IMG/VR virus record: IMGVR_UViG_3300024059_000014
Span: 1-37,642 of that record
Source of the DNA: a virus
Strand: one strand, 5' to 3'
Length of the DNA: 37,642 bases
Shown here: in pieces, positions 17,980-25,889 of the stretch
How the letters are laid out: every line of letters begins with the position of its first letter
How positions within the stretch are numbered: position 1 is the stretch's first letter
Notes under the pieces: model-generated
What the model was told of the DNA's origin: nothing
The model's database searches: none
Seen by the model: the letters and a program-made list of their open reading frames with translations, nothing else
Translations under genes and position numbers: made by a program

Positions 17980-18147
17980 TTACCCTCTCTTTTTCTGCTG
18001 ATTAAAATAATCGTCTAACGCTTTTTGCCAAACGTCATCACCAAACTTTCTAGCGTATGCCATGTAGTGAGCGTGTGACGTGCTCACAATGGGCGATTGA
18101 TTCTTTACCTGATAAATATACGCTTTCACGGCTTCCTGTAGTGTCAT
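17980..18147 (-). CDS. Small helical protein, 55 aa
   Basis: ATG at 18147 selected: AGGAG lies about nine bases upstream, whereas an in-frame TTG at 18171 has no site and lies in the previous gene. Starts MTLQEAVKAYIYQVKN, with an aromatic/His-containing middle (STSHAHYMAYARKFGDD) and a basic end (NQQKKRG). Predicted helical and possibly nucleic-acid binding by charge. No family recognised. Confidence 0.55.
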   Translation of the reverse strand: MTLQEAVKAYIYQVKNQSPIVSTSHAHYMAYARKFGDDVWQKALDDYFNQQKKRG

Positions 18148-18151
18148 GCTG

Positions 18152-18802
18152 TTATACTCCTGTGGTTGCAATAATATTGCGCTGTTGCTTTTCCATTGAT
18201 CGCCCGTGGCCTATGTAGCAGACTACGGGTACACTCTTATCCCAGCAGGCTCTACAGTCAGCACACTTGCCTTGCCTTGTGTACGCTTCGCACACTACAG
18301 CACCCCGTGGCACCGTGTCAAGCGTGGCAATGGTGCTAGTGTTGCTACCCTGTACCGTCTCGCCTGTGATAGAGTCACTGGATAACCTAACCGCTACGTT
18401 TGGCAAGGCCTGTAGCAACGCCAGAACAACCTTAAACTTACGGAATTTGTGCATCCGTGTCGGTATCCAGTGTTTTACCCACGGCGTACGCTGGCAAACT
18501 TCCAGAATCTTATTAGCGAGTCCTAGACTGTACATGTCCCCAGAGTCAAACCATCGGAAATAGCGGTCATTGTCTAACTCTGCCACCATGTCATCTACCC
18601 ATGTGTCACGCTTCCAGTCTATCCGGTTGTGCTCCCGTGGTGCTTTAACATTCTTAAACCGATAGTTTCCCGTGGTGGCGTAGCATCCGCTACAGGCAGG
18701 CACTAGTGCGCCTGTGCTGTCTCTGGACGCTGGGCACGTGTCTAACGCTTGCAGTGACCACGACCTACATGGCATCTTAGATGCTTTGGATAGCTTTAGC
18801 AT
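18152..18802 (-). CDS. Gene product 88-like cysteine-rich protein, 216 aa
   Basis: ATG at 18802 (MLKLSKASKMPC) has GAGG eight bases upstream and matches the start I recall for the Gp88 family, first known from actinobacteriophages; the frame continues upstream without a site. Conserved elements: Cys12 and Cys23 in KMPCRSW / TCPAS, Cys37-x2-Cys40 (CSGCYATTGNY), WVDDM, RYFRWFDSGDMYS, WVKHWIPTRMHKF, and a C-terminal Cys cluster (GKCADCRACW). C-x2-CYA, SGDMY and TR-x-KF resemble the landmarks of the Gp37/Gp68 (DUF5131) family, so metal or iron-sulfur binding on a barrel-like fold is possible. No phage function is established to my knowledge. Confidence 0.75.
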   Translation of the reverse strand: MLKLSKASKMPCRSWSLQALDTCPASRDSTGALVPACSGCYATTGNYRFKNVKAPREHNRIDWKRDTWVDDMVAELDNDRYFRWFDSGDMYSLGLANKILEVCQRTPWVKHWIPTRMHKFRKFKVVLALLQALPNVAVRLSSDSITGETVQGSNTSTIATLDTVPRGAVVCEAYTRQGKCADCRACWDKSVPVVCYIGHGRSMEKQQRNIIATTGV

Positions 18803-18876
18803 GGTGTTACCCTCGTTTGGTTTGTGTTTAATCATGGGCACCATATAGGTACCCATTGTTAAACGCAAGCCCCCTG

Positions 18877-19083
18877 TTAACCTAATATGTCGCTAGTGTC
18901 GTAGCCGTTAGCGTCTAACCACTCTCTGGCCTCTGGTATCATACAGAAGCTCATGTCGTAATCGTAACATATAGTCCCTTGCATGACGTAGACGCATATG
19001 GCATCGTCCTCGCCTCTAGTGATGTGCTCAAAGTATACACTGTCAGTGCCTACGTATACGCTGTAGTCTTTATGTATTGCCAT
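18877..19083 (-). CDS. Small acidic unknown protein, 68 aa
   Basis: ATG at 19083 preferred (MAIHKDYSVYVG): GGAGG lies nine bases upstream. An in-frame start at 19119 would overlap the first gene of the block. Beta-rich first half (YVGTDSVYFEHITRGEDDAI), two Cys in the middle and an acidic C-terminus (EWLDANGYDTSDILG). No motif recognised. A 74-base gap separates it from the Gp88-like gene. Confidence 0.55.
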   Translation of the reverse strand: MAIHKDYSVYVGTDSVYFEHITRGEDDAICVYVMQGTICYDYDMSFCMIPEAREWLDANGYDTSDILG

Positions 19084-19096
19084 GGCCTCAGGCCTC

Positions 19097-19291
19097 CTAT
19101 TTGCTGTACTTGTATTCACCTAGAGTGTCGCCATCATTAGTGATTAGTCTAGCGTTGAATGTTGAAAACTCTGCTATGTGCTGGCTTAGGGCCTGTCGAG
19201 CTTCTTCTAGGTATACATGTTGTGATACTTTGAACCATTTAGTTAACCTGCTGTTAGATTGCTGTCTAAATCTGTATTGCAGTGTGTACAT
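19097..19291 (-). CDS. First gene of the leftward block, small basic protein, 64 aa
   Basis: ATG at 19291 with AGGAG about nine bases upstream. Starts MYTLQYRFRQQSNSRLTKWF: a basic, Gln/Arg-rich N-terminus, then a helical segment (EEARQALSQHIAEF) and a short beta hairpin (ARLITNDGDTLGEYKY). It is the most upstream leftward gene and would be made first after infection, so a host-takeover or regulatory role is reasonable but unproven. Confidence 0.55.
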   Translation of the reverse strand: MYTLQYRFRQQSNSRLTKWFKVSQHVYLEEARQALSQHIAEFSTFNARLITNDGDTLGEYKYSK

Positions 19292-19507
19292 ATATAGTCG
19301 CTCCTATGGGGTGGCATGTGTTCCCCGTCGCCATGTGTGTACTATGATGGATCCAGAGACAGAATACAAGCGGTAATATTACCATAATTAGGTAGGCTCT
19401 AGACTATTGACTGCCTAGCATGTTGTATGCTTGCGATTAGCTTAAGGGTCCTACACTGGTTCACACACTCGTGTCTACGTAAATATTCACATGTTACATA
19501 TCCCCAT

Positions 19508-19599
19508 GTTGGCATGAGTTTTGCCTATGCAATAAGTGTGCCAATGTTGCTGGCCTCTTATGTTGGCACAGGTTGTGCTATAGCAAGATCCATGCCAAC
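19508..19599. repeat. 92-bp imperfect dyad with nested TTGGCA/TGCCAA arms
   Basis: Outer arms GTTGGCATG (19508-19516) and CATGCCAAC (19591-19599) are perfect inverted copies. Inner arms TGTGCCAA (19537-19544) and TTGGCACA (19563-19570) are also perfect inverted copies. Both pairs share the same centre, 19553/19554. Over the whole half-sites I count 29 of 46 paired positions. The four TTGGCA cores alternate in orientation and lie 30, 24 and 30 bases apart. Operator cluster, origin element or large hairpin are all possible. Confidence 0.75.
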
Positions 19600-19649
19600 T
19601 TTGGGGTGGCCCTTGAGTTTGACACGGGGGAGGGTGTTGACTTGTGTTA

Positions 19650-19655
19650 ATTATA
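19650..19655 (-). promoter_or_regulatory. Candidate minus-10 box for the leftward block
   Basis: The minus strand reads TATAAT here, a perfect sigma-70 minus-10. The position 17 bases upstream reads TGGTGT, a poor minus-35, and there is no extended TG. If used, the transcript would run through the dyad and have a leader of roughly 350 bases before the first leftward gene. Activator dependence at the dyad would reconcile this, but that is speculation. Confidence 0.25.
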
Positions 19656-19811
19656 GTTGTAGCCACCTCAGCACACCAGAAGGTGAATTTAGAAAAAATA
19701 GGGATTATTCATGTTACTTATGCCCTACCTAGCGACTTGTTTTACCTCGTGTTTACCCTGTGTTGTCACAAATGCACTAAATAAGTGAACCTATAGTGTA
19801 CCTTGTGTACT

Positions 19812-19861
19812 ATTTACATAAAATAAAGCTTGACTTTTGAGTAAAAGTATGGTATAATATA
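19812..19861 (+). repeat. 50-bp exact direct repeat, copy 1 (contains a promoter)
   Basis: Bases 19812-19861 are identical to 25840-25889 over 50 positions; flanks diverge at once on both sides. The shared block contains a full sigma-70 promoter plus about 18 A/T-rich bases upstream of the minus-35. Confidence 0.95.
19830..19858 (+). promoter_or_regulatory. Strong sigma-70 promoter for the rightward late block (P1)
   Basis: TTGACT at 19830-19835, 17-base spacer, TATAAT at 19853-19858. An A/T-rich stretch (atttacataaaataaagc) just upstream looks like an UP element. It would initiate near 19865 and give a leader of about 140 bases containing the hairpin at 19921-19977 before the probable small terminase gene. 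Confidence 0.88.
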
Positions 19862-19920
19862 AGGTAGATATTAGGATGTATTTAGTGAAGCAGGTGCGGG
19901 ACTAAAGATTGAGTGTTGTA

Positions 19921-19977
19921 TAGTTCGTATAGATCCCCTCATCTGTTGCAACCTAAGCAGGGGACTCATGCGAACTA
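19921..19977 (+). promoter_or_regulatory. Leader RNA hairpin between P1 and the first late gene
   Basis: Outer stem TAGTTCG (19921-19927) pairs with CGAACTA (19971-19977). A symmetric 6+6 internal loop follows, then TCCCCT (19934-19939) pairs with AGGGGA (19959-19964) around a 19-base loop containing GTTGCAAC. It is not followed by a T-run, so it is not a standard terminator. It could stabilise the transcript, be an RNase site, or bind a regulator. Confidence 0.6.
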
Positions 19978-20002
19978 GCGTTAAACACAAGGATACAGGA
20001 GA

Positions 20003-20458
20003 ATGTCGTCAGGTGACACCCTAGAAACCAAAGAAAACACCCTAGAAGCCCAAGCAGCAGCTAGAAAAGAGATTAATATTAAAAAAAGACCCAGAGGTAG
20101 GCCTAAGCAAAAGGAGATCAAGGCTAAAACTGCAGGGTCTAGAGGTAAAGTAGGCAGGCCTAAGGGTGATGCTACTATAATTAATGAGTACAAGGCTAGG
20201 ATGTTAGCTAGTCCTAAGTCCATTAAGGTACTAGAGACTATCTTTGAGGCTGCTTTAGACCACGATCACAAGAATCAGGCAGCAGCATGGAAGCTAGTGA
20301 TGGACAGAATACTCCCAGTAGGTGCATTTGAAAAAGAGGTGGTAAAAGACAATGGAAGAAGTGCAATACAGATTAACATCACTGGTGTCGGAAGCACGGA
20401 AATTCTTGGAGGCACTGAAGACGGAAGCACAATTGAAGGTGAACTCATTGAGGAGTAA
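20003..20458 (+). CDS. terS: Probable terminase small subunit / DNA-binding protein, 151 aa
   Basis: ATG with AAGGA about nine bases upstream. The N-terminal 55 residues are highly basic with two AT-hook-like cores (KKRPRGRPKQK and VGRPKGD). A helical middle follows (about 58-110: EYKARMLASPKSIKVLETI, then DHKNQAAAWKLVMDRILP), and a beta/acidic C-terminus (INITGVGSTEI through ELIEE) suited to contact the large terminase. This type of protein is found at the head of the packaging block in marine podoviruses as I recall. It is the first gene after P1; large terminase follows four genes later. Alternative: a DNA-binding regulator of late genes. Confidence 0.65.
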   Translation: MSSGDTLETKENTLEAQAAARKEINIKKRPRGRPKQKEIKAKTAGSRGKVGRPKGDATIINEYKARMLASPKSIKVLETIFEAALDHDHKNQAAAWKLVMDRILPVGAFEKEVVKDNGRSAIQINITGVGSTEILGGTEDGSTIEGELIEE

Positions 20459-25839: not shown

Positions 25840-25889
25840 ATTTACATAAAATAAAGCTTGACTTTTGAGTAAAAGTATGGTATAATATA
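25840..25889 (+). repeat. 50-bp exact direct repeat, copy 2 (contains a promoter)
   Basis: Identical to 19812-19861 over all 50 bases. It starts one base after the stop of the preceding gene. Flanking bases differ on both sides from the first copy. Confidence 0.95.
25858..25886 (+). promoter_or_regulatory. Sigma-70 promoter for the head-assembly genes (P2)
   Basis: TTGACT at 25858-25863, 17-base spacer, TATAAT at 25881-25886, with the same A/T-rich upstream stretch as P1. A start near 25893 gives a leader of about 50 bases before the 82 aa gene. It would boost scaffold and capsid expression, ending at the terminator after the capsid gene. Confidence 0.88.

Follow-up and report, generated by a model that had tools for sequence, protein, structure and literature searches.

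The 92-bp element at positions 19508-19599 of the stretch analysed here (the window, a 37,642-bp IMG/VR phage record) consists, as read from its sequence, of four clustered and nearly perfect copies of the sigma-54 (RpoN) signal. Our overall reading, to which we give an even chance, is that host RpoN, or its holoenzyme, would bind these closely packed sites, which would serve in capture, decoy or upstream regulation. The array lies in the control region between divergent gene blocks, as a preliminary description of the window had already reported. Leftward, from ~19.3 kb to 7.5 kb, are T7-like replication genes (primase-helicase, PolA, SSB-like) and ribonucleotide reductase; rightward, from 20.0 kb, are the terminase large subunit and portal. 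The features of the region are as follows:

18152..18868, minus strand: leftward GP88-family gene (PF17338, phrog_1392), used as bait for finding relatives
19097..19291, minus strand: first leftward gene, 64 aa, whose co-occurrence with the array is not strict
19450..19491, no strand: left flank module, CCTACACTGGTTCACACACTCGTGTCTACGTAAATATTCACA, kept in many relatives despite differing array lengths
19508..19545, no strand: facing-pair unit 1, 38 bp
19509..19525, plus strand: sigma-54-type element 1, TTGGCATGAGTTTTGCC, one mismatch to YTGGCAYRN4TTGCW
19528..19544, minus strand: sigma-54-type element 2, TTGGCACACTTATTGCA, no mismatches, facing element 1
19562..19599, no strand: facing-pair unit 2, 38 bp, offset 54 bp from unit 1
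19563..19579, plus strand: sigma-54-type element 3, TTGGCACAGGTTGTGCT, one mismatch
19582..19598, minus strand: sigma-54-type element 4, TTGGCATGGATCTTGCT, no mismatches
19619..19655, no strand: right flank module, TTGACACGGGGGAGGGTGTTGACTTGTGTTAATTATAG; other relatives have DnaA boxes, CTGTGGATAAC, there
19830..19858, plus strand: strong sigma-70-like promoter, TTGACT-N17-TATAAT, preceding the rightward block and conserved with or without the array
20003..20458, plus strand: first rightward gene, a putative small terminase (TerS) judged by its place ahead of the large terminase gene; contains an AT-hook-like region

The putative TerS gene had no Pfam or PHROG match, and its leader (19921-19977) holds a 19-nt inverted repeat (79% complementary) that is found verbatim in the relative L005. 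The right module reads GGGGGAGGG...TTGAC, and GGGGAGGGG is enriched near arrays (6 occurrences vs 0.5 in shuffles, with one representative per lineage). An exact 50-bp repeat (19812-19861 = 25840-25889) places the strong TTGACT-N17-TATAAT promoter before two rightward gene groups. Pseudoalteromonas phage Slicky01, a 65-kb and otherwise unrelated phage, matches a 48-bp stretch of this promoter at 92% identity (18099-18147); this was the only DNA match among deposited phages, where TerS had no protein match and GP88 matches reached at most 57%.

The geometry given in the preliminary description was reproduced in full: TTGGCA occurs at 19509 and 19563 on the plus strand and TGCCAA at 19539 and 19593, giving core spacings of 30, 24 and 30 bp, with outer arms of 9 bp and inner arms of 8 bp both matching about 19553/19554. 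Across the 92-bp dyad, 58 of 92 positions are symmetric. Elements 1 and 2 face each other, as do 3 and 4, with their TTGC (-12) ends 4 bp apart, while elements 2 and 3 stand back-to-back at a separation of 18 bp. The conserved unit extends beyond TTGGCA (TTGGCAYRNNNNTTGC), the longer units around the four cores being TTGGCATGAGTTTTGC, TTGGCACACTTATTGC, TTGGCACAGGTTGTGC and TTGGCATGGATCTTGC. The single centre shared by both pairs of arms is present as claimed, but it arises whenever copies alternate and their number is even, and relatives have copy numbers that include 3, 5, 6, 8 and 9.

The array was also held to be too ordered for chance, and this is borne out. A shuffled window is expected to contain 0.43 matches to YTGGCAYRN4TTGCW (at most one mismatch), none of 200 shuffles brought two sites together in a 92-bp stretch, and the Poisson probability of four sites in that length is ~8e-11; chance can be excluded as the origin of the array. 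A coding explanation was considered and rejected: a mechanical ORF (19427-19732, plus strand, 101 aa) spans the array, but the unit periods vary out of frame between relatives (43, 47, 54 and 57 bp). An RNA element was likewise rejected, as window positions 18800-20300 had no Rfam match.

The published sigma-54 consensus is YTGGCACGNNNNTTGCWNNw (PMC2848651). Each TTGGCA core forms the -24 half of a 17-bp YTGGCAYR-N4-TTGCW, the GG-N10-GC spacing is exact in all four sites, and the four best scores against the consensus anywhere in the window are the four array elements. At positions 7 and 8, YR is found in 180 of 191 viral half-sites vs 41 of 122 in bacterial-genome matches, the viral pairs having been retrieved with only TTGGCA and TTGC fixed. 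Seeding the array regions with GG-N10-GC alone returned TTGGCA[CT][GA][AG]NNNTTGC[AT][AT], asymmetric as for sigma-54, a result that is partly circular as the regions were themselves picked by motif. Facing pairs with the true spacing (N6) occur in at least 119 IMG/VR stretches vs 4 for a wrong-spacing control (N8, a complete scan of 2.9 million viral contigs), and at least about 120 stretches carry the true internal spacing for each of three site arrangements. The consensus of IHF, a classical sigma-54 partner, occurs near arrays 23 times vs 4.9 +/- 2.2 in shuffles (4.7x; in 19 of 90 lineage representatives), as would be expected for sigma-54, though also for other nucleoprotein structures. 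Taking this agreement of motif, spacing and asymmetry together, the window's elements and their kin are probably sigma-54-type RpoN sites.

How widespread are such arrays? At least 335 site-cluster loci fall into up to 90 lineages when grouped by shared neighbouring proteins; this is an approximate upper bound, as fragments without overlapping genes are counted apart, and gene calls were mechanical throughout. Array-bearing records reach 230 kb. Perfect sites are found in 49 of 50 whole array-phage records, vs two matches to the reversed pattern in all of them. The sites avoid genes: ORFs of 130 aa or more hold only 13 of 95 (60% expected). Large phages carry site clusters at many loci, with up to 12 packed sites in the densest arrays. 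One very dense cluster of ~0.8 kb, in a 147-kb phage record (L555:15203-15988), has its minus-strand sites on the left and its plus-strand sites on the right.

Bacterial and archaeal genomes look different: only 60 matches came from 84,980 of them, spread evenly over the gap lengths, and several of the clean bacterial-genome matches sit on phage-like contigs. One contig binned as Chitinophagales (JAIXLO010000160.1, loci L572 and L577) is a 383-kb jumbo-phage contig with 30 perfect sigma-54-type sites, encoding a portal and a terminase with a LAGLIDADG-type insertion. Arrays were found in none of 25 named phage records (19, two being uncultured environmental genomes, plus six more); perfect sites do occur singly at two places (25616 and 30368) in Rheinheimera phage Barba1A, which has no array. 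Searches with two large proteins of other array phages found no cultured relatives, the densest array had only chance-level blastn matches among phages, and no site array was found in plasmids. Nor did we find a report of packed phage sigma-54-type site arrays in the open-access literature.

Closer to the window, we compared 117 control regions (at least 600 bp) taken from GP88 and TerS relatives, duplicates included where contigs were fetched by both searches. Sigma-54-type sites are absent from 60 of these, while 44 have two or more (2-9 copies) in the same place as the window's array, with copy growth in steps of 54, 57, 47 or 43 bp. The preliminary description had named absence of the arms from close relatives with otherwise conserved control regions as what would count against it. 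Such absence is seen: L004 and L005, the nearest relatives, lack any site, yet keep the modules on either side as well as the sigma-70 promoter (TTGACTTTTGAGTAAAAGTATGGTATAAT). Because of this absence, the essential early-to-late switch that had been suggested is unlikely. The suggested interpretation survives in part: the element remains a putative multi-site protein-binding array in a divergent control region, with spacing that fits simultaneous, close packing.

Perfect DnaA boxes (one to eight) occur in 46 of the 117 regions. The two kinds of site are independent of each other: 18 regions have both (~17 expected) and 45 have neither. The DnaA boxes (TGTGGATAA) stand beside or instead of the array, often in tandem at ~22 bp (L026, L084, L098, L104, L106, L135, L146 and L153). 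The control regions of L005 and L070, which lack a TTGGCA array, contain repeated TGTTGACA/TGTCAACA motifs, possibly another interchangeable array. Presence or absence in close relatives, together with unit-wise copy growth, marks the array as a variable cassette, one that on this comparison behaves as gained or lost and is accompanied or replaced by DnaA-box arrays.

The same comparison bears on the replication origin element that had been offered as another explanation, in which the repeats would be iterons bound by a phage initiator, with the DnaA boxes of relatives as companions. The cumulative GC skew does have its minimum near 19.5 kb, the check that had been put forward for an origin; however, transcription diverges at this same point, and the minimum is neither specific nor independent evidence. 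The DnaA boxes themselves would suit an origin, but they vary independently of the array, and 45 relatives have neither. With many cluster loci per genome in large phages, close relatives that lack the array between conserved flanks, and T7-like replication genes (primase-helicase, PolA) in the window, we regard origin iterons as very improbable, although single arrays may conceivably have such a role.

The sites within arrays follow packing rules. Counted once per lineage and gap, facing sites are separated by 3-8 bp, back-to-back sites by 3-8 or 13-17 bp, and tandem sites by 8-13 or 19-23 bp, with few or no cases between these preferred windows. The gap windows are about half a helical turn wide and recur after about one turn; this suggests that adjacent sites would be bound jointly in particular rotational relations. 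Two whole holoenzymes may be too large for facing sites 20 bp apart.

What might bind them? The RpoN DNA-binding domain was found in none of the 50 array phages, while control genomes were positive. The preliminary description had noted that no repressor is recognisable, and indeed the early genes tested gave no matches to HTH regulators. Its proposal of a new small phage regulator is not supported. The gene for the 64-aa protein occurs without the array in four regions and the array without the gene in 12; the AT-hook protein (TerS) is present in all relatives, yet 60 of the 117 control regions have no site; and genes of 80 and 63 aa do not track the array either. A comparison of 13 diverse array phages gave no small protein family common to them, and only large terminase, portal and reductase-type families recur. 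The simplest common factor would then be a widely conserved host protein, and we infer that RpoN is the one with this specificity. All five bacterial bins examined that have clean pairs encode RpoN, which is weak support because RpoN is common. When its activator is missing, the sigma-54 holoenzyme binds DNA in an inactive form, and it can act as a repressor at sites that overlap a further promoter (PMC4591121). Predicted binding sites without promoter function are therefore mechanistically plausible.

Instead of RpoN, an unrelated host or phage activator or repressor might recognise a sigma-54-like site, and the array would then serve sigma-70 promoters as operator or upstream activating sequence. 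A second clade of array phages speaks for this, as its sites, in either orientation, are found 25-65 bp ahead of the -35 element at a phasing of ~10.6 bp, and 102 of them are upstream of sigma-70 promoters vs 6 downstream. This helical phasing looked very strong at first, but it fades when promoters are called more loosely and lineages are de-duplicated more strictly (p 0.02-0.15), and the window's clade shows none, its array being 231 bp from the sigma-70 promoter. The match to sigma-54 also spans every conserved consensus position, spacing and asymmetry included, and the 13 diverse phages offer no shared small protein for the part. We consider such a regulator unlikely.

If RpoN is the binder, the elements could simply be bidirectional sigma-54-dependent promoters switched on by a host enhancer-binding protein. 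In the window, the plus-strand sites would start rightward transcripts near 19536 and 19590, and the minus-strand sites leftward ones near 19517 and 19571. Consensus sites in both directions between divergent blocks are what such promoters predict, as are the flanks of facing pairs, which are mostly divergent (25 vs 6 convergent), and the IHF sites enriched near arrays. In JAIXLO010000160.1 (L572) almost all sites share one strand, the gene-proximal site usually precedes the ATG by 46 bp, and a conserved leader (GATAANNGATCGCATCTWAGTA / GATCGCATCTWAGTA) comes after it; a true promoter role looks clear only in this jumbo-phage contig.

Elsewhere the promoter reading fits less well. Tandem arrays point towards the facing gene in 15 cases and away in 8, and single sites towards it in 9 and away in 18, so that array orientation in IMG/VR phages is not significantly gene-directed. 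A promoter would not need as many as 12 packed sites, and in the window the sites are separated from the first genes by 218 and 404 bp. The 50 array phages yielded no convincing enhancer-binding protein (two had partial PF00158 (AAA+) matches), although a host protein could serve. Bidirectional promoters are thus a rather doubtful general explanation.

We favour a capture array as the most likely role because of the 2-9 copies, the mixed orientation, the packing rules and the gain-or-loss behaviour of the cassette, which DnaA-box arrays can accompany or replace. The sequence features of a decoy array are present: near-perfect packed sites, independence of orientation and variable copy number. 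The second clade's preference for sites upstream of sigma-70 promoters (102 vs 6) also agrees with this reading. Host RpoN, alone or as the closed complex of RNA polymerase and sigma-54, would bind several elements at once, and the array would act regardless of orientation to capture a host factor at the phage control region. It would thereby be a decoy and/or an upstream regulatory platform beside sigma-70 promoters, rather than a single classical promoter, and some phages may additionally use the element as a promoter. That capture or upstream regulation is the main role of the sites is a proposition we place just below the halfway mark.

The recurrence of packed clusters in many unrelated uncultured phages suggests that phages may widely capture or exploit host sigma-54. 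To our knowledge, sigma-54, which is tied to nitrogen and envelope stress sensing, is not among the host factors on which well-studied phages rely. Packed, phage-enriched sites of this type would reveal how many environmental phages engage host transcription, and the array provides a sequence-level signature that is essentially absent from bacterial genomes and from the named phage records above. More tentatively, many uncultured phages could carry interchangeable DNA-sponge arrays for host regulators, with sigma-54-RNA polymerase captured here and DnaA in relatives. Should this be true, each replicating genome would capture a host factor and remodel host transcription or replication without needing a protein.

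Compared with known systems, the unit itself is closest to bacterial sigma-54 -24/-12 elements, sharing YTGGCAYRN4TTGCW, GG-N10-GC, the asymmetry and the nearby IHF sites across lineages. Unlike these elements, the phage arrays pack 2-12 copies together, alternating or mixed in orientation and keeping to fixed gap windows, are not reliably aimed at a gene start, and occur in phages without their own RpoN. Lambda-type OR/OL regions resemble the array in having several inverted-repeat sites with helical spacing between divergent transcription units, but here the unit is asymmetric, no repressor gene was found, the cassette is missing in the closest relatives and the array lineages have no common small regulator. 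Iteron origins likewise have repeated sites near DnaA boxes at a point of transcription divergence, yet the repeats of the array alternate instead of being direct, large phages have many loci and no initiator was found. A titration or decoy role has been proposed for DnaA-box clusters such as datA. The array, whose titration role is putative, differs from these in its presumed factor, sigma-54, and in often lying near strong sigma-70 promoters. It resembles them in packing several near-perfect sites into a small non-coding stretch with variable copy number, and in the window's relatives DnaA-box arrays occupy the very same control region.
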